This document shows positions 23,929-31,881 of a stretch of 36,668 bases of DNA, in pieces; the stretch's first letter is position 1, and the number at the start of each line of letters is the position of its first letter. Origin of the DNA: Phycisphaerae bacterium (GTDB taxonomy: Bacteria > Planctomycetota > Phycisphaerae > Phycisphaerales > SM1A02); NCBI GenBank assembly GCA_016873275.1, contig VGXO01000031.1, positions 1 to 36,668 of the forward strand, in the 5' to 3' direction. The notes beneath the pieces were generated by a model. The model was not told the DNA's origin and ran no database searches. It was given only the letters and a program-made list of their open reading frames with translations. Made by a program: the position numbers and the translations under genes.

Positions 23929-24960
23929 ATGCCGGATGCCCCAATGACGCAACTCCCTCGTCCCCCGTGGATCGACGCCCACCTCGACCTCGCCATGCTC
24001 GGGGTCGCCCGCCGCGACCTGCGCCGACCGGTGCCGGCGTCGGAGGACGGGTGCCTGAGCCTGCCCGACCTCGCGGAGGCGCCGGTCGAACTCTGCCTTG
24101 CGACGATCTTCGCGGAGCCGGGCTGCGATCCCGCCTCGAACCCCGGCGGCTACCGCGACGCCGCCGACCGCGCGGGCGCCGCGAGCGCCGGACGGCGGCA
24201 GCTCGAGCTCTACGAGAGGCTCGAACGCGAGGGTCACCTGCGGATCGTCCGCCACCGCGAGGACCTCGACGGGGGCGGCGATGGTCGCCTGCGCATCGTC
24301 GTCCTCATGGAGGGCGCGGATCCGATCCTCGGCGGCGACGACGTCGCCTGGTGGTTCGAGCGGGGCGTGCGGGCGGTGGGGCTCGCGTGGGCGCTCGGCA
24401 CCCGCGCCGCGGGCGGCAACAAGGAGGGCGGTCCGCTCACCGCGGAGGGTCGCGACGTCGTCGCCGCGATGGACGCGCTCGGCATGCTGCACGACCTCTC
24501 GCACCTCTCCGACGAGGCGTTCGACGACCTCCTTGCCGCGACCGACCGCCGCGTGGTCTCGACCCACTCGAACGTCCGCCGCCTCCTCGGCGACGCGGCG
24601 AACATGCGGCACCTCTCCGACCGGCAGATCCGCGCGATCGCCGATCGCGGCGGGGTGATGGGTCTCAACCTCTACGGCAGGTTCCTCGCCCCGGATGGTC
24701 GCGCGACGCTCGAACACTGCCTCGATCACGTCGAGGCGATCGCGTCGATCGCGGGGCGCGACCGGGTCGGGGTCGGCTCGGATCTTGACGGCGGATTCGG
24801 CGCGTCGGCACTCCCGGAGGGCGTGCGGCATCCGCGGGAGTACGCGGCGCTCGAGGTCGGTCTCGCCCGCCGCGGCTGGAGCGAGGCGGAACGGGCGGGA
24901 TTCCGCCGCGGAAACTGGCTCAGGATCCTGCGGGAGTCGCTGCCGCCGCGGCGTCGTTGA
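23929..24960 (+). CDS. Membrane dipeptidase family protein (peptidase M19)
   Basis: A protein of 343 residues related to renal dipeptidase. Zinc-ligand motifs are WIDAHLDLAML (HxD), VLMEGADPI (the bridging Glu), VVSTHSNVRRL (His) and GVGSDLDGG (Asp), with LHDLSHLSDEAF between. The family cleaves dipeptides, often with a D-residue or dehydro residue at the C-terminal side. No signal peptide is seen, so it is probably cytoplasmic. ATG 23929 has GAGGAG 8 nt upstream; ATG 23944 is an alternative. The stop overlaps the convergent gene by 41 bp. Confidence 0.9.
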   Translation: MPDAPMTQLPRPPWIDAHLDLAMLGVARRDLRRPVPASEDGCLSLPDLAEAPVELCLATIFAEPGCDPASNPGGYRDAADRAGAASAGRRQLELYERLEREGHLRIVRHREDLDGGGDGRLRIVVLMEGADPILGGDDVAWWFERGVRAVGLAWALGTRAAGGNKEGGPLTAEGRDVVAAMDALGMLHDLSHLSDEAFDDLLAATDRRVVSTHSNVRRLLGDAANMRHLSDRQIRAIADRGGVMGLNLYGRFLAPDGRATLEHCLDHVEAIASIAGRDRVGVGSDLDGGFGASALPEGVRHPREYAALEVGLARRGWSEAERAGFRRGNWLRILRESLPPRRR

Positions 24961-26419
24961 GCGGCAGGCGGAGCCATCCGCGCTCGGCACCGACCTTCAC
25001 CTCCGCGACGAGGTGCAGGCGGATCGGACTGTGGAGCAGGCTCATCGCGTCCTTCGCTCGGGCGGTCACGAGGTCGATGACGAGGTCGCTCGGATCGCTG
25101 CAGCGCACCCCGGGGCAGGCGAGCCGAAGCAGCGTCGCGTGATCGGAGGTCCACGCCGCGGTCGCCTCGACGTCGGCGAGGTCCTCGAGGCGGGCGACGA
25201 TGTGCAGGCGTCCTTCGGCGTCCACGCCGAGCTCGACCTCAGGGTGATAAGGACACCCGACCGGCATCGGCCGGAGCTCCTCGAAGCGGGCGAGCAAGGG
25301 CGCCGTCGGCGATCGCTCGGCGAGCATCGCCCGAGCGGGATCACGACGATCGCCGGCCCGCATGAAGCCATCGTCCGGCGCGGGCGGGAGTCGGGTCGGA
25401 TCGCTCGGCGCCGCGGGACGCGAGGGAGGACCGCCCGGCAGGGACTCCCACGGCACGGATCGACCGGCGACGAGGCGCTGCACGCCCCCGGGAACCGGTC
25501 GGATCGAAGCGCCAGACTGCTCGCCGACGGTCTCGACCTCCGGTCGCTCGACCGGACGCGGCGTCGCGTCGAAGGGCCATGACGGACTCGCCGCGGTCGG
25601 CTCGCGCCGCTCGGTCGCCTCGCGGGGCGCGGACCCCTCGCGGGCGGTCGGCGGAGGCGGCGCGGCGGGACGCGGCTCGATCGATCGCTTCGACCGCTCG
25701 CGAAGCATCTGCTCGAGCAGCGTCGGGACCTCCTCGAAGGGGAGGTTGCGGGGCGCCGGAAGCATCAGGCGCAGCGAGGACTCGAGCGGCTCCATCCGCG
25801 GCATCGTCACCGCGAGCGGAAGCTCGACGGCGAGGAACGCCTCCGCGGTCCGGTTCAGCTTGTGCATCGCCGCGGCGACCTGCACGTCGCCCGCGCCGAG
25901 CACGCCGACCGAGATCGGCGGCAGCGCACGTCCCTCGACCATCGCCTCCTCGGCGAGCGACTTCAGGATCCGGTACGCCGCGACCACCGCGGTCTCGTCG
26001 GCGCCGGTGAGGAGCAGCAGCGATCCTCCGCCCGAGCGAAGGATCTCCCCGCTCGACGCGGACGCCTCGGGCACCACGATCCAGCGGGGCGCGAGCCGGG
26101 TCGCGAGGGCGAGCGCCTCGTGCAGGTCGAGCGGATCGCCATGATCCTGCGGCGCCCCGGCGCGGAAGACCTCGACGTGAACCTGCCCCGCGACGAAGCG
26201 GACGAGCCCGGTCGGTCCATGCTCGCGGGCGAGGCGGTCGGTCAACTGCGCGAGCCAGAGTCCCGCGGAGACCGGCAGGTGACCCGCGACCGCCACGGTG
26301 ATCGCGGAGAGGCGATCGGCCGAGGAGCCCGGGGTCGACGCCGGGCGCGGCGTCGGCTTCGACTCCGGCGTCAGGAAGAGGTCGGCGAGGTCGTCGAAGG
26401 GATCTCGGGGTCCGTCCAT
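24920..26419 (-). CDS. MinD/FlhG-like protein without a P-loop, unknown function
   Basis: A protein of 499 residues. Residues about 35-250 follow the outline of a MinD/FlhG ATPase. SAITVAVAGHLPVSAGLWLAQL sits where Walker A should be but lacks GK-T. GGGSLLLLTGADETAVVAAYRILKSL corresponds to the post-Walker-B strand, and AEAFLAVELPLAVTMPRM to the last strand. A disordered Pro/Arg-rich linker follows (about 255-370), then a C-terminal domain with CPYHPEVELGVDAEGRLHIVA. It starts 2 bp after the stop of the ParA gene, so it is probably made with it and may bind it. The resemblance is my reading of the pattern and would need a structure comparison. Confidence 0.65.
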   Translation of the reverse strand: MDGPRDPFDDLADLFLTPESKPTPRPASTPGSSADRLSAITVAVAGHLPVSAGLWLAQLTDRLAREHGPTGLVRFVAGQVHVEVFRAGAPQDHGDPLDLHEALALATRLAPRWIVVPEASASSGEILRSGGGSLLLLTGADETAVVAAYRILKSLAEEAMVEGRALPPISVGVLGAGDVQVAAAMHKLNRTAEAFLAVELPLAVTMPRMEPLESSLRLMLPAPRNLPFEEVPTLLEQMLRERSKRSIEPRPAAPPPPTAREGSAPREATERREPTAASPSWPFDATPRPVERPEVETVGEQSGASIRPVPGGVQRLVAGRSVPWESLPGGPPSRPAAPSDPTRLPPAPDDGFMRAGDRRDPARAMLAERSPTAPLLARFEELRPMPVGCPYHPEVELGVDAEGRLHIVARLEDLADVEATAAWTSDHATLLRLACPGVRCSDPSDLVIDLVTARAKDAMSLLHSPIRLHLVAEVKVGAERGWLRLPLNDAAAAATPAGS

Positions 26420-26421
26420 GG

Positions 26422-27762
26422 TCAGCGTCCCGGCACCCTCAGGAGGTTCGATTCACCATCCGGACGGGAGATCCGCTCGAGGTTGAACGGATCGACCCCG
26501 ACCACGCCATCCACCACCACGCGGTACTCGTAGCGCCCGGGCGGCACGCCGATGAGGAGCGCGAAGACGCCCGCGTCCGCGTCGCGCCGCATCGGGAAGT
26601 CCTGCACGCCGGTCCCGAAGAGCGGTCCGAAGTCCGCGCGGATCGCGGCGCTCGACGCGCCCGCCGCCGGCTGCACGAATCGGACGCCCTCGGCGACGAA
26701 GGAGACGCCCATCTCGAGGGATCGCGGCGGCGCTTCGAGCACCGCGGAGCCGCCGCTCGGACCGTCGGGAACCTGCCGTTCGCGGGGGGTCGAGGGTTCG
26801 GCCGTCGCGAACGGATCAGCGTCGTCCCGGGGAGCGCCGCGGCGCATTCGCTCGACGAGCTCCGCGACGCGGCTGCCCTGCCGCGACGACTCGGTCGCGA
26901 CCGACCGAGTGGGCGCGACGACCGGCTGGTCGCCGAGCATCGACGCGACCGCGCCACGATCGACCTCGACGAGCGGCACCGAGGGCTCCGCTCGGAGCTT
27001 GATCAGCCAGTCCGCGAGGCTCGCGAAGTTCGAGGCGGCCTTCGACCCGGGCGAGTGCTCGCGGACCGGGCGACCGAAGCCGACCGCCTCGCGGAGCTCG
27101 TCGTGGTCGAGGATCGTCACCGGCACGAGCACGTCGCCGAAGCGCGACTGGATCTCCGCCATCACGTCGCGGGCGACCCGTCGCTCCGCCTTGTGCAGCG
27201 TCGGCAGCACCCTGACCGGGATCACCCGTCCCACCCGCTCGGAGACCTTGCGGATCTGGGCGAGCTGGTTCTCCGCGCCCTCGAGGGCGAGGAAGCCGGT
27301 CTCGACCGGGATGATCGCCTCGTCCGCCGCCCGCAGGGCGTTGAAGGTGAGGATGCCGAGCGTCGGCGGGCAGTCGATGAAGCAGTACTCGAAGCTCGGC
27401 GCGAGGCGTGCGAGGAGGCGCGTCAGGCGCCGGTCGCGGTCGGAGACCTGCGCGAGCGGACCATGCGCCGCCTCCAGCGCGGCGAGGCGCACCGAGGAGG
27501 GCGCGAGGTAGAGGTTCCGCGTGACCTCCCAGAGCATCGCGCTCGGATCAGGTCCCCGCTCGACGTCGCCGACGAGCGCCGCCGCCATGTCCCGCTCGAT
27601 CTTCGACTGCGGCACGCCGAGACCCGCGGCGCAGTGGGACTGCGGGTCCATGTCGACGAGCAGGGTCCGGTGTCCGCGCGATGCGAGCTCCGCCGCGAGG
27701 TTGATCGCGGTGGTCGTCTTGCCGCATCCGCCCTTCTGATTGACGACGGCGAAGGTTCGCAT
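26422..27762 (-). CDS. ParA-type ATPase fused to an AMPK-beta/CBM48-like domain
   Basis: A protein of 446 residues. Residues 1-250 are a standard ParA/Soj ATPase: deviant Walker A KGGCGKTT (10-17), VDMDPQSHCAAGLG, FIDCPPTLGILTFNAL, VRVLPTLHKAERRVARDV. Residues about 250-350 are a disordered linker. Residues 351-446 read as an E-set AMPK1/CBM48-like domain: VRFVQPAAGASSAAIRADFG, then a PM-x-R segment, a strand, PPGRYEYRVVVDG and DPFNLERI. The Trp residues that bind glycogen in AMPK-beta are absent. There is no parB or parS next to it, so it is probably a protein-positioning ATPase, not a chromosome partitioner. Confidence 0.85.
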   Translation of the reverse strand: MRTFAVVNQKGGCGKTTTAINLAAELASRGHRTLLVDMDPQSHCAAGLGVPQSKIERDMAAALVGDVERGPDPSAMLWEVTRNLYLAPSSVRLAALEAAHGPLAQVSDRDRRLTRLLARLAPSFEYCFIDCPPTLGILTFNALRAADEAIIPVETGFLALEGAENQLAQIRKVSERVGRVIPVRVLPTLHKAERRVARDVMAEIQSRFGDVLVPVTILDHDELREAVGFGRPVREHSPGSKAASNFASLADWLIKLRAEPSVPLVEVDRGAVASMLGDQPVVAPTRSVATESSRQGSRVAELVERMRRGAPRDDADPFATAEPSTPRERQVPDGPSGGSAVLEAPPRSLEMGVSFVAEGVRFVQPAAGASSAAIRADFGPLFGTGVQDFPMRRDADAGVFALLIGVPPGRYEYRVVVDGVVGVDPFNLERISRPDGESNLLRVPGR

Positions 27763-27897: not shown

Positions 27898-29040
27898 TCA
27901 GGTCGCCCCGATCGCCCGCCAACCGACCGCGACCGCCTCCTCCGGCGGCGCCTCCACCAGCTCGATCCGACCCGGCGCGAGGGGCAGCACGAGCCGCAGT
28001 CGTCCCTCGACCCGCTTCTTGTCGAGGTCCATCGCCCGCCGAAGGTCTCCGACCGCCTCCGGTCGGTCGAGCATGGTGGGAAGCCCGAGGCGGGCGAGGA
28101 GCCGACGGATCCGGGTCGCCGTGCCCGACGGGGCGCGACCAAGGTGCTCTGCGACCGCCGCCGCCGCGACCATCCCGAGGGCGACCGCCTCGCCATGCCG
28201 GAGCGTCTGTCCCGGTCGCGACTCGATCGCGTGGGCGAAGGTGTGCCCGAGGTTGAGGTGCCGCCGGTCACCCTCCTCGCGGGGGTCCCGGAGGACGATC
28301 GCGGTCTTGACCGCGAGGTTCTCCGCGACGAGCCGCGTGCCATGCCGACCCGCCGCGATCGCCTCCGCCTCGCCCTCGAGCCACGCGAGGTGGGCAGGAT
28401 CGGCGATCCATCCGTGCTTCACGCACTCGGCAAGCCCGGCGCGGAACTCCTCGGGAGGCAGCGTCCGAAGCACCGCGGGATCCGCCACGACGAGCGACGC
28501 GGGGTGGAAGGTCCCGAGCAGGTTCCTTCCGAGGGATCCATCCGGCAGGCGGAGGTTGACCGCGGTCTTGCCGCCGACCGCCGCGTCGACCATCGCAAGC
28601 AGCGTCGTCGGCACGAGGACGAGCGGAAGCCCGCGCAGCAGGATCGACGCCGCGAAGGCGGCGACGTCGCCGACGCATCCGCCGCCGACCGCGACGAGCG
28701 GCGTGCCGCGGTCGATCCCCCAGCGGACCGCCGCCTCGCCGATCCGCATCGCCGACGCGACGCTCTTCTCCGATTCGGTGGCGGCGATCTCGATCCGGAG
28801 CACCTCGATGCCCGCGCCCTCGAGCGCGGCGAGCACGGCGGCTCCCGCCGCCTCCTCCGCGCCGGGATCGACGACCAGCACCGCCCGCCGCGCCTCGCCG
28901 CACTCCTCGCGGATCCAGCCAGCGAGACCACCGAGCACGCCCGGCCCGATCTCGATCCGCGTCGCGCGAGCCGGAAGCATCGGACCCGCGACGCGGGTCC
29001 AGTCGAGGCGGAGCGAGGCGTGGGAGGGAGAGGTCTTCAC
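27898..29040 (-). CDS. aroB: 3-dehydroquinate synthase
   Basis: A protein of 380 residues; second step of the shikimate pathway (DAHP to 3-dehydroquinate, NAD- and Zn-dependent, cytoplasm). Key motifs are ESEKS, VGGGCVGDVAAFAASILLRG, PTTLLAMVDAAVGGKTAVN, AGLAECVKHGWI (Glu ligand), LNLGHTFAHAIE (His ligand) and LRHGEAVALGM (His ligand). Start ATG 29040 lies 94 bp after the upstream membrane-protein stop. No other aro gene is in the window. Confidence 0.96.
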   Translation of the reverse strand: MKTSPSHASLRLDWTRVAGPMLPARATRIEIGPGVLGGLAGWIREECGEARRAVLVVDPGAEEAAGAAVLAALEGAGIEVLRIEIAATESEKSVASAMRIGEAAVRWGIDRGTPLVAVGGGCVGDVAAFAASILLRGLPLVLVPTTLLAMVDAAVGGKTAVNLRLPDGSLGRNLLGTFHPASLVVADPAVLRTLPPEEFRAGLAECVKHGWIADPAHLAWLEGEAEAIAAGRHGTRLVAENLAVKTAIVLRDPREEGDRRHLNLGHTFAHAIESRPGQTLRHGEAVALGMVAAAAVAEHLGRAPSGTATRIRRLLARLGLPTMLDRPEAVGDLRRAMDLDKKRVEGRLRLVLPLAPGRIELVEAPPEEAVAVGWRAIGAT

Positions 29041-29134: not shown

Positions 29135-29971
29135 TCACCGCGTCCCCTGCCTCCTCCGGGACTCCTGTTCCAACACGCCGAGCGCCTCGGCGGGGTCCGC
29201 AGGCAGGTCGCTTCGGGGCGATGCCTCGTCCGCGATCGGCTCCGCGGAGGTCGCAGCGATCCGCGACGGGGTGCGCCGCCGGCGAAGGAGCCAAAGGAAG
29301 ATCGGCGTCATCACGAGGATCAGGACCAGCAGGATCGCCGCCGTCCCTCCAGGACCCGCCGGCGGCTCGGCGGTCCGCGCCACGCCGACGATCGTGGGGA
29401 ATCGACGGGCGATCCCATCGCGACCCTCGAGCTCGGTCACCCGCAGGAACCGCCCCACCACCTCGACCCGCCGCGGCGTGCGATCGGGCGGGAGATCGGG
29501 AGGCTCGACGACCCACGCCTGGATCGCCCCGGACGTCTGCGGATCGCCCTCCGCCTCTGGTCGGATGAACCACTCGGCGATCCTCGGAGACGCGGGCACC
29601 TCGCCTCCGCCCGAGGGCATCGGGGTCGCCTGCTCGAGCCGTCCGGCGACCACGACGAGGCTGCCGCGATGGAGATCCGGGTCGAGGAGCCACGCCGCCC
29701 AGTCGGGTCGGCGGACGATCGCGGAGCCATCCATCGCGGACCGAAGCAACGCGGGGTCGGTGGGCCATGCCGCGACGTGACGCACGAGGCGATGCCACGC
29801 CTCCTCGCGGCGGTCGACGCCGTCGCTCGCCGCCGCCAGGGCGACCTGGTCCTCCGCATCGAGCGGCGGAAGCGTCGGCGGCGCCGCCATCGCGAGCGCT
29901 CCGACCACCCAGGCGGCGCCGGCGATCCCGCCGGGAGACCAAGACCGGCGACGTCGTTCACGTCGGAGCAT
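29135..29971 (-). CDS. Membrane-anchored protein of unknown function, 278 residues
   Basis: I do not recognise a family. It starts with RRERRRRSW followed by a hydrophobic segment (GGIAGAAWVVGALAMAA), either a signal peptide or anchor. A periplasmic domain follows, with LLDPDLHRGSLVVVAGRLEQ and VVGRFLRVTELEG; these strand pairs suggest a small beta-barrel or OB-like fold. A second membrane helix (about 225-245, ILLVLILVMTPIFLWLL) and an RRRR-rich cytoplasmic tail end the protein. TATCGT lies 6 nt before ATG 29971. It is upstream of aroB in the same direction. Confidence 0.75.
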   Translation of the reverse strand: MLRRERRRRSWSPGGIAGAAWVVGALAMAAPPTLPPLDAEDQVALAAASDGVDRREEAWHRLVRHVAAWPTDPALLRSAMDGSAIVRRPDWAAWLLDPDLHRGSLVVVAGRLEQATPMPSGGGEVPASPRIAEWFIRPEAEGDPQTSGAIQAWVVEPPDLPPDRTPRRVEVVGRFLRVTELEGRDGIARRFPTIVGVARTAEPPAGPGGTAAILLVLILVMTPIFLWLLRRRRTPSRIAATSAEPIADEASPRSDLPADPAEALGVLEQESRRRQGTR

Positions 29972-30567: not shown

Positions 30568-31881
30568 GTGACCGGCTCCCCCGCATCGCCATGGCTCCTC
30601 TGCCCGCTTCGATTCGAGGCGGGCGTCCTCTCGCGCACGCGACGACGGCGCGGGCTGCCCCCGCTCGACTCGGCGTGCTGCGGTCCCGGCGGCGATGCGG
30701 TCCGGCGCTGGATCGATCGAGCCGCCGAGACCTCCTGCCGAGACGGTCGCGGCGTCATCCTCGTCGGCACCGCGGGCGGGCTCGATCCCGCGCTCGCCTC
30801 GGGCACCGCGGCGAGGATCGGCGAGGTCATCGCGCCGGACGGTCGCCGCTGGTCGCCGACCCTCGAGCTTGATCAGCCTCGCCGCGCGATCCGCGCGACG
30901 AGCGTCGAGGGAATCGCCTCGCCCGAGGAGAAGCGGTCGCTCCGCGGCTCGACCGGCGCCGACGCGGTCGACCTCGAGTCGGTGGCGTTCGCGGAGGCGT
31001 GCGACGCGCGGGCGATCCCGTGGGCGATCGTGCGGGGCATCTCCGACGCGGCGGAGGAGACGCTTCCGGTCGACGCGGGTCGCTGGATCGACGCCTCGGG
31101 CCGCACCCGACCGCTCGCGGTGCTCGCGTCGATCCTCCGTCGCCCCTCGCTGCTCGGGACGCTCCGACGGCTCTCCCGCACCAGCCGCGCCGCGCTCGAG
31201 GACGCGAGCAACCTCCGCCTCGCGACGACCCGCCGGTGGATCGTCTTCGGAGGATCCTTCGACCCGCCGCATCGCGGGCACGTCGAGCTTCCGCGCCGCG
31301 CGGCGCAGGCGCTCGCCGCCGAGCGGGTGCTCTACGTCCCGGCGAACCTGAATCCGCTGAAGGAGTCGGCGCCTCCGACTTCGGCATCCCACCGCCTCGC
31401 GATGCTTCGGCTCGCCCTCGGCGGCGACGACCTCGCCGAGATCCGCACCATCGAGATCGACCGCGGCGGCGCGAGCTACGCGGCGGACACGATGGAGGCG
31501 CTCGCCGAGGAGGCGGCGCGGGCGACGCCCCCCGCGCGGCTCGTCCTCCTCCTCGGCGCCGACGCGGCGCTCGCGCTGCCTCGCTGGCGCGACCCCGCGC
31601 GGATCGCCGCGACCTGCGAGCTCGCCGTCATGCTGCGACCACCGCATGACCGCGCGAGCTTCGCCCGGTCGTTCGCGGCGGCGTGGGGCGGATCGCCACC
31701 GGCGATCTCGCCGCGATGGGTCCTCGACCTCGGGCGGATCGAGGCGAGCTCGACCGCGGTCCGAGAAGGCGAGCCGGGCGACGACCTGTCGCCCGCCGTC
31801 GCCGACTACGCCCGGGCGCACCGGCTCTATCCGGCGTCCGGCGGACGCGGAACCTCCGCGTGCCACCCACCTCTGGGATGA
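30568..31881 (+). CDS. nadD: Fusion of nucleoside phosphorylase-like domain and nicotinate-nucleotide adenylyltransferase (NadD)
   Basis: A protein of 437 residues; NadD alone has about 190-215. Residues 1-215 look like a purine nucleoside phosphorylase/MTA-SAH nucleosidase fold: ILVGTAGGLDPALASG, then DAVDLESVAFAEAC (Glu137) and AIPWAIVRGISDAAEE (Asp160), the usual base- and ribose-binding pair. Residues 223-437 are NadD: GGSFDPPHRGH (228-238), LYVPANLNPLKE, LLLGADAALALPRW, RIEASSTAVREG. NadD adenylates nicotinate mononucleotide in NAD synthesis. The N-terminal substrate is unknown; it resembles hopanoid-associated phosphorylase as well. Start GTG 30568 follows a TACCCT box by 8 nt. Confidence 0.88.
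   Translation: MTGSPASPWLLCPLRFEAGVLSRTRRRRGLPPLDSACCGPGGDAVRRWIDRAAETSCRDGRGVILVGTAGGLDPALASGTAARIGEVIAPDGRRWSPTLELDQPRRAIRATSVEGIASPEEKRSLRGSTGADAVDLESVAFAEACDARAIPWAIVRGISDAAEETLPVDAGRWIDASGRTRPLAVLASILRRPSLLGTLRRLSRTSRAALEDASNLRLATTRRWIVFGGSFDPPHRGHVELPRRAAQALAAERVLYVPANLNPLKESAPPTSASHRLAMLRLALGGDDLAEIRTIEIDRGGASYAADTMEALAEEAARATPPARLVLLLGADAALALPRWRDPARIAATCELAVMLRPPHDRASFARSFAAAWGGSPPAISPRWVLDLGRIEASSTAVREGEPGDDLSPAVADYARAHRLYPASGGRGTSACHPPLG

Follow-up and report, generated by a model that had tools for sequence, protein, structure and literature searches.

Gene and Domain Organization of the Locus

The window, which is the whole stretch of 36,668 nucleotides analysed here, carries at 26422-27762 an open reading frame (ORF) of 446 amino acids that begins with ATG and lies on the minus strand; the matching plus-strand frame over the same bases happens to be stop-free too. 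An earlier note on this DNA had described the product as a ParA ATPase fused to an AMPK-beta/CBM48-like domain, and the motifs that it quoted (VRFVQPA, PM-x-R in the form PMRR, PPGRYEYRVVVDG, and DPFN) are all found in the minus-strand ORF. The features of the locus are the following.

26422..27762, minus strand: parA-CBM48 fusion gene, 446 aa, ATG start
26998..27762, minus strand: ParA ATPase core, residues 1-255; deviant Walker A motif KGGCGKTT, D37, FIDCPP; AAA_31 match at 2.8e-42
26713..26997, minus strand: linker, residues 256-350; low model confidence, fast-evolving
26836..26871, minus strand: basic linker helix RVAELVERMRR, residues 298-308 (modelled as 298-309); conserved, candidate partner-docking helix
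26425..26712, minus strand: AMPK-beta/CBM48-type E-set domain (the tail), residues 351-446; both sugar-stacking Trp lost
24920..26419, minus strand: partner gene, 499 aa; starts 2 bases past the parA stop, conserved downstream neighbour
25679..26302, minus strand: MinD/FlhG-like fold of the partner, residues 40-247 (model, Foldseek, and profile matches)
26252..26284, minus strand: GHLPVSAGLWL at the P-loop position of the partner, residues 46-56; no Walker A pattern (alignment)
24935..25312, minus strand: C-terminal domain of the partner, residues 370-495; confidently modelled, without a Pfam match in the window protein
27898..29040, minus strand: aroB (3-dehydroquinate synthase), frequent upstream neighbour

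The regions around a family member were taken from 40 relatives, with ORF starts cut back by alignment to that of the window, and 37 of the 41 ParAs, the window's included, bear the tail. The four tail-less ParAs were left out of the tail alignment, and L062 was left out of alignment A3. A further set comprised named loci, the best 80 of 581 confirmed relatives in a genome contig collection, of which three (L072, L073, and L076) are genes already among the 41 aligned ParAs and one (L081) is the ParA of genome G027.

A ParA-Type ATPase Core

The ATPase half had been called a normal ParA, and its motifs and predicted fold bear this out. The core matches AAA_31 in the Pfam profile search of the window protein (E 2.8e-42), the solved sequence closest to it is a ParA (1.3e-37), and the top ten Foldseek hits for the window model are all ParA/Soj proteins (TMt 0.86-0.91). 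The motif KGGxGKTT, with its signature lysine, is present in 40 of the 41 aligned ParAs, and the Walker A' and Walker B positions are conserved as well, with D37 and D130 invariant in the alignment. Against the NCBIfam ParA_partition equivalog, the window protein scores 102.7 bits, below the cut-off of 180; on profile scores, it is a member of the ParA superfamily and not of that named equivalog. ParA matches occur in 61 of 61 genomes searched, including that of the window.

The deviant Walker A motif and the fold are shared with ParA/Soj, whose wider relatives include McdA, MinD, BcsQ, and FlhG. In contrast to ParA/Soj proteins, the window ParA has an additional C-terminal E-set domain on a linker, and its neighbour is a P-loop-less relative of MinD/FlhG rather than ParB, McdB, or MinE. 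Likewise, unlike in chromosome-segregating ParABS systems, parB is not located beside the window parA, which is flanked by the MinD/FlhG-like partner gene downstream and aroB upstream. For the other ParA of the window genome, no ParB was found among the four neighbouring ORFs scanned.

A C-Terminal AMPK-Beta/CBM48-Type Domain

The last 96 residues were proposed in the earlier note to have the AMPK-beta glycogen-binding fold. Taken singly, the window sequence matches the corresponding profiles only below their curated cut-offs: AMPK1_CBM gives E=0.014 in the whole window protein and E=0.0015 with the tail alone (19.1 bits; cut-off, 26.8), and CBM_48 gives E=0.0042 with the tail alone (17.8 bits; cut-off, 22.4). 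The family as a whole is recognized more clearly. AMPK1_CBM is matched at E<=0.01 by all 37 aligned tails including the window's, with a best value of 2e-17, and CBM_48 is matched by 29 of the 37, while the joint tail profile retrieves from the PDB the glycogen-binding domains of AMPK beta-1 and beta-2, with AMPKβ1 as the best hit (2.7e-14). The homology of the window tail is accepted because the tails of its family and their joint profile match, even though the lone window sequence stays under the cut-offs. The profile search of residues 351-446 that had been suggested as a check thus falls short of the cut-offs for the single sequence and succeeds at the level of the family.

AlphaFold predicts residues 351-446 to be an ordered beta-sandwich with pLDDT block means of 88-97, so the tail is not modelled as disordered, and the fold assigned to it earlier is sustained. 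The homology and fold of the tail rest on the profiles and on AlphaFold, since the 50 Foldseek hits listed for the whole model are all ParA-like. In relatives, the usual tail pattern is GDFNxW ... PPGRYRYRLVVDGxW ... DPxN. By alignment and model, the C-terminal half is a bona fide AMPK-beta/CBM48-type domain and the fusion is real. It has its profile and fold in common with the AMPK-beta glycogen-binding domain and CBM48 (PF16561 and PF02922) and differs from them in being carried by a bacterial ParA-type ATPase and, in the window copy, in lacking both Trp and scoring under the curated Pfam cut-offs. As a separate observation, CBM_48 matches also occur in small non-ParA open frames of about 100-250 aa in many of the 61 genomes.

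Distribution, Loss, and Constraint of the Fused Domain

The ParA-tail fusion is widespread and conserved. A full-length ParA alignment is matched at 1e-60 or better in 194 of 248 genomes of the class, and in at least 111 of the 248 (hand count) the alignment runs in one piece through the end of the tail. Among the best 80 of 581 confirmed relatives, 44 ParAs have the tail fused, and the contigs of 12 of these 44 are not titled planctomycete, the titles being the depositors' own and mostly those of metagenome bins. By title, the 12 contigs are Myxococcota or Myxococcales (L104, L107, and L117), Deltaproteobacteria (L111, L113, and L136), Desulfobacteraceae (L126), Zixibacteria (L108), Omnitrophota (L133), Rokubacteria (L137 and L141), and an uncultured bacterium (L114). 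A locus titled only uncultured bacterium, L082, bears the partner. The closest named relatives of the window protein, among the matches listed, are titled Phycisphaerales or Phycisphaeraceae.

The domain has also been lost repeatedly. Its state was scored, together with that of the two sugar-stacking tryptophans, in 58 of the 61 genomes, with G029 (a distant ParA only) and the two genomes cut by contig ends (G016 and G031) omitted here and from the tree, and treating the ParA and tail of G026, which lie on two contigs, as one gene. Both Trp are present in 36 genomes, only the first in 8, and neither in 4, while in 10 genomes the domain is absent and ParA is kept. On the ParA-core tree, presence and absence of the domain amount to five changes, at least three of which are forced by starred branches. 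The genus of the window falls, beside the domain-less G028, within a set of 12 rows with a damaged or lost domain (support 85/93), comprising eight without the domain, three without both Trp, and one with a single Trp. Nine of the 10 domain-less genomes keep the partner, suggesting that the tail is not essential to the role of the pair; in these nine, the partner starts between -17 and +12 bases from the ParA stop, which indicates a true absence of the domain rather than a frameshift. The tenth, G048, is partner-less.

Within the genus of the window, dN/dS was 0.33-0.39 for the tail, 0.19-0.28 for the core, and 0.38-0.55 for the linker (three sequences, a simple method, dS 0.75-1.6), and the tail alignment has zero indels over 96 columns in the three genomes. 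In this small sample of three genomes, the tail appears to be under constraint rather than decaying unchecked.

The Sugar Site and Its Relation to Alpha-Glucan Genes

In AMPKβ1, the sugar contacts are W100, K126, W133, L146, and T148, and mutation of those contact residues that were tested lowered glycogen binding (PMC2642990). These positions were mapped onto the family by alignment to the tail profile. Among the best 80 of 581 relatives, the equivalents of W100 and W133 are both kept in 40 of the 44 named fusions, the K126 position is R or K in 41 of 44, and an Asn is kept in 36 of 44. Since the sugar-contact residues are retained in most fusions, the ancestral ligand of the tail was plausibly an alpha-glucan. 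In the window protein, both sugar-stacking Trp are missing, as the earlier note had observed, and the alignment shows the same in its two congeners (three of three genomes of the genus). The tail of this genus probably binds something else now, probably a protein, and the protein ligand suggested earlier as the alternative appears right.

The earlier note had also raised the possibility that the ATPase positions glycogen granules or an enzyme complex. A search for four alpha-glucan enzyme families (GT5, GT35, GH13, and GH57), together with CBM_48, in 61 genomes including that of the window gave matches to GT5 in 51, GT35 in 45, GH13 in 40, and GH57 in 55 genomes. Most GT5 and GT35 matches are weak and incomplete, so that these two families say little; near full-length GT5 occurs in G012, G021, and G023, and full-length GT35 in G022, G033, and G034. 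The window genome has GH13 (4.5e-27) and GH57 (8.1e-62) as well as weaker partial GT5 (4.9e-8) and GT35 (2.2e-6), all on contigs other than that of ParA, and the three genomes of its genus combine clear GH13 and GH57 and partial, weak GT5/GT35 with loss of the Trp pair. The sister genomes G025 and G030 (93% and 91% complete) keep both Trp and have no match to GT5, GT35, GH13, or GH57; they are the only genomes with a scored tail in which all four families are missing, and as sisters they count as a single event, in which genes may have been missed because the assemblies are incomplete. In G026 (80% complete), a weak GH57 fragment is the only match. Nine of the 10 domain-less genomes match at least three of the four families.

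In the family of the window, GH13 is missing from 12 of 14 genomes with two Trp and from none of the 20 in which the domain is damaged or lost, a comparison for which the tree allows three to four independent pairs. With so few pairs, this inverse link was rejected as standalone evidence. GH57 is present in most of the GH13-less genomes, including the single-contig G011, so absence of GH13 does not mean absence of alpha-glucan. No positive link between alpha-glucan genes and the state of the tail was found for the four families in the 61 genomes. Because these genes do not track the domain, glycogen-granule positioning by the window ParA is unsupported, and the proposal of glycogen granules as cargo is not supported by the comparison: G025 and G030 keep the Trp pair without the four families, while the genus with GH13 and GH57 has lost it.

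A Conserved Downstream Partner without a P-Loop

A homologue of the partner is adjacent, downstream, and on the same strand in 53 of the 61 genomes, including that of the window, and 21 of the 53 adjacent pairs have a 4-base start/stop overlap; the two genes are probably co-transcribed. In G026, the partner lies on a separate contig together with the tail. Among the other seven genomes, three have contig ends at this point (G006, G016, and G031), G029 has no ortholog, G024 has a diverged ORF in place, and a search with the partner profile did not detect a partner in G041 or G048. Across the class, the partner profile was found in 146 of 397 genomes, a count that is firm neither as an upper nor as a lower bound, because ordinary MinD/FlhG ATPases account for part of the weak matches and scoring was limited to a few candidates in each genome.

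The window partner has no Pfam match at E<=1 and no NCBIfam match at 0.01, and the three Pfam matches among 36 partners are single-member, at 0.04-0.06, and look like chance. AlphaFold models residues 41-250 and 371-490 with pLDDT block means of 86-98 and 88-97, respectively. The six best Foldseek hits of the model are FlhG and FleN at low TM (0.36-0.48 of the target), the best of them being FlhG 4rz2 (E 5.0e-6, TM 0.44 of the target, rmsd 12.4). The seven selected weak genome matches of the partner profile (1.6e-11 to 4.9e-10) are MinD/FlhG-type ATPases by their motif GKGGVGKT. TatB, the top PDB profile hit at 0.0016, was disregarded, for the match covers the low-complexity linker; FlhG follows at 0.042. 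Thus, partner residues 40-247 resemble the FlhG/FleN/MinD ATPases by profile and, at low TM, by Foldseek; in contrast to these ATPases, the partner has an extra C-terminal domain (370-495) and no Walker A pattern in any of 36 members, the site reading GHLPVxAGLWL or a variant. Because the P-loop is missing in 36 of 36, the partner is predicted, from alignment and model, to be a pseudo-ATPase of MinD/FlhG-like type that bears an additional C-terminal domain, and not an ATPase.

The Linker and Its Conserved Basic Helix

The linker is mostly of low confidence in the AlphaFold model (residues 261-350, pLDDT block means 37-65) and is 43-53% identical within the genus versus 71-81% in the core. Its conserved part is a basic helix resembling SR(A/V)AELxxRxR, with R298 and R305 at least 90% conserved, and AlphaFold also models a helix at 298-309. 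A regular expression for this helix matches 34 of the 41 aligned ParAs, which are its source sequences, and 0.7% of shuffled linkers. Among the best 80 of 581 relatives, it matches 12 of 23 partner-bearing versus 0 of 26 partner-less fused loci; without the three loci already among the 41, the counts are 9 of 20 versus 0 of 26 (Fisher 1.5e-4, uncorrected for kinship). In the same set, it misses 11 of the 23 partner-bearing loci, at some of which the motif, by eye, seems to have diverged. The helix is also present in tail-less ParAs, which suggests a role unrelated to the tail. From this pattern of conservation, the basic linker helix is a candidate docking site for the partner; as a strict docking site it is weakened, as G041 and G048 keep the helix without a detectable partner. 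In planctomycete fusions without a partner (L084-L112), many linkers bear another conserved stretch, similar to LVNSLxxxLxxISASAEELL.

Other Neighbouring Genes

The cargo is not named by the gene neighbours of parA at the loci examined. A homologue of aroB is located upstream of parA in 26 of 41 loci, including the window. Also upstream, in 16 of 41 loci, is an ORF encoding a probable membrane protein of 278 aa (window 29135-29971, minus strand), which has no Pfam match at 0.01 (two matches at 0.14-0.15 are at chance level) and none in NCBIfam. An ORF of median 566 aa (e.g., L055 5733-7451), weakly ArnT-like in NCBIfam (24.3 of 567 bits), precedes parA at 11 of the 41 loci and is not in the window. 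Around eight fusion loci that lack the partner, one of which (L084) is from a planctomycete, the 20 neighbouring ORFs have no common theme. Elsewhere in the window, a 437-aa ORF (30568-31881, plus strand) joins a phosphorylase-superfamily half, HpnG-like under the cut-off, to a NadD-type nicotinate-nucleotide adenylyltransferase half (TIGR00482, 116.3 bits, over the cut-off), an unusual fusion.

Discussion

ParA-type ATPases position chromosomes, carboxysomes, and other protein cargos, and in other systems ParB, McdB, or MinE performs the job of anchoring the ATPase or controlling its ATP cycle. The reading that we tentatively prefer, at somewhat short of an even chance, is a ParA whose E-set tail, on a flexible linker, tethers a cargo or a second protein, and whose P-loop-less partner, probably docked on it, serves as an anchor or as a control of the ATP cycle. 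The ParA would alternate between an ATP-dependent dimer, probably bound to the nucleoid, and a monomer. The MinD/FlhG-like product of the next gene would probably dock on ParA, with the basic linker helix as the candidate site, and the docked partner would then anchor ParA or control its ATP cycle, while the tail on its flexible linker would tether ParA to the cargo or second protein.

Other readings assign the tail a different task. It may be a protein-interaction or folding module family-wide that has never bound sugar, with the Trp residues being structural. The independence of the domain from alpha-glucan genes, the retention of both Trp in the two sister genomes lacking the four enzyme families, and the constraint on the domain in the Trp-less genus are consistent with such a module. 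We nevertheless consider it rather unlikely, as the Trp pair, the R/K, and the Asn are each kept in the great majority of the 44 fusions among the best 80 of 581 relatives, across several titled phyla, and this set of kept residues is more like the sugar site of AMPK-beta than like a generic E-set fold. The same residues, with the sugar contacts kept in 40 of 44 fusions of that set, favour a tail that acts as an AMPK-like sensor, where binding of a glucan or oligosaccharide switches the ATPase on or off with no cargo tethered; the AMPK-beta domain not only binds glycogen but also acts in allosteric regulation (PMC2642990). However, the long low-confidence linker suggests that core and tail have no fixed contact, and the loss of both Trp makes a sensor inapplicable to the genus of the window unless the ligand has changed, so that this reading is unlikely.

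Two further readings concern the organism itself. If the tail of its genus were a decaying relic, already useless and heading for loss, then its place within the 12-row set of damaged and lost domains would be accounted for; yet the dN/dS of 0.33-0.39, the tail columns free of indels in three genomes, and the confident fold make this quite improbable. A positioner of glycogen granules or glycogen enzymes would suit a genome that matches GH13, GH57, and, more weakly and in part, GT5 and GT35. It is made very improbable by the missing Trp pair throughout the genus, by the location of the alpha-glucan hits away from the ParA contig, and by the distribution of GH13, which is the reverse of the prediction, although with three to four independent pairs it shows the lack of a positive link rather than a significant negative one.

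A more far-reaching reading is a ParA tethered to, or reading, intracellular alpha-glucan together with a dead FlhG-like partner, old in the Phycisphaerae and present in several other phyla, with the sugar site lost and possibly re-used in the genus of the window; this reading we hold to be doubtful. Both halves of the fusion belong to known families, and a literature search of partial coverage (few subscription journals) found, in titles and abstract openings, no sign of a ParA-CBM48 fusion. If the tail binds glucan, then a polysaccharide would join the cargos or signals of ParA proteins, and the bacterial and eukaryotic uses of the AMPKβ-type domain would be linked. Because two-Trp, one-Trp, no-Trp, and domain-less proteins form a natural series, and because the partner lacks a P-loop, the question can be tested directly.
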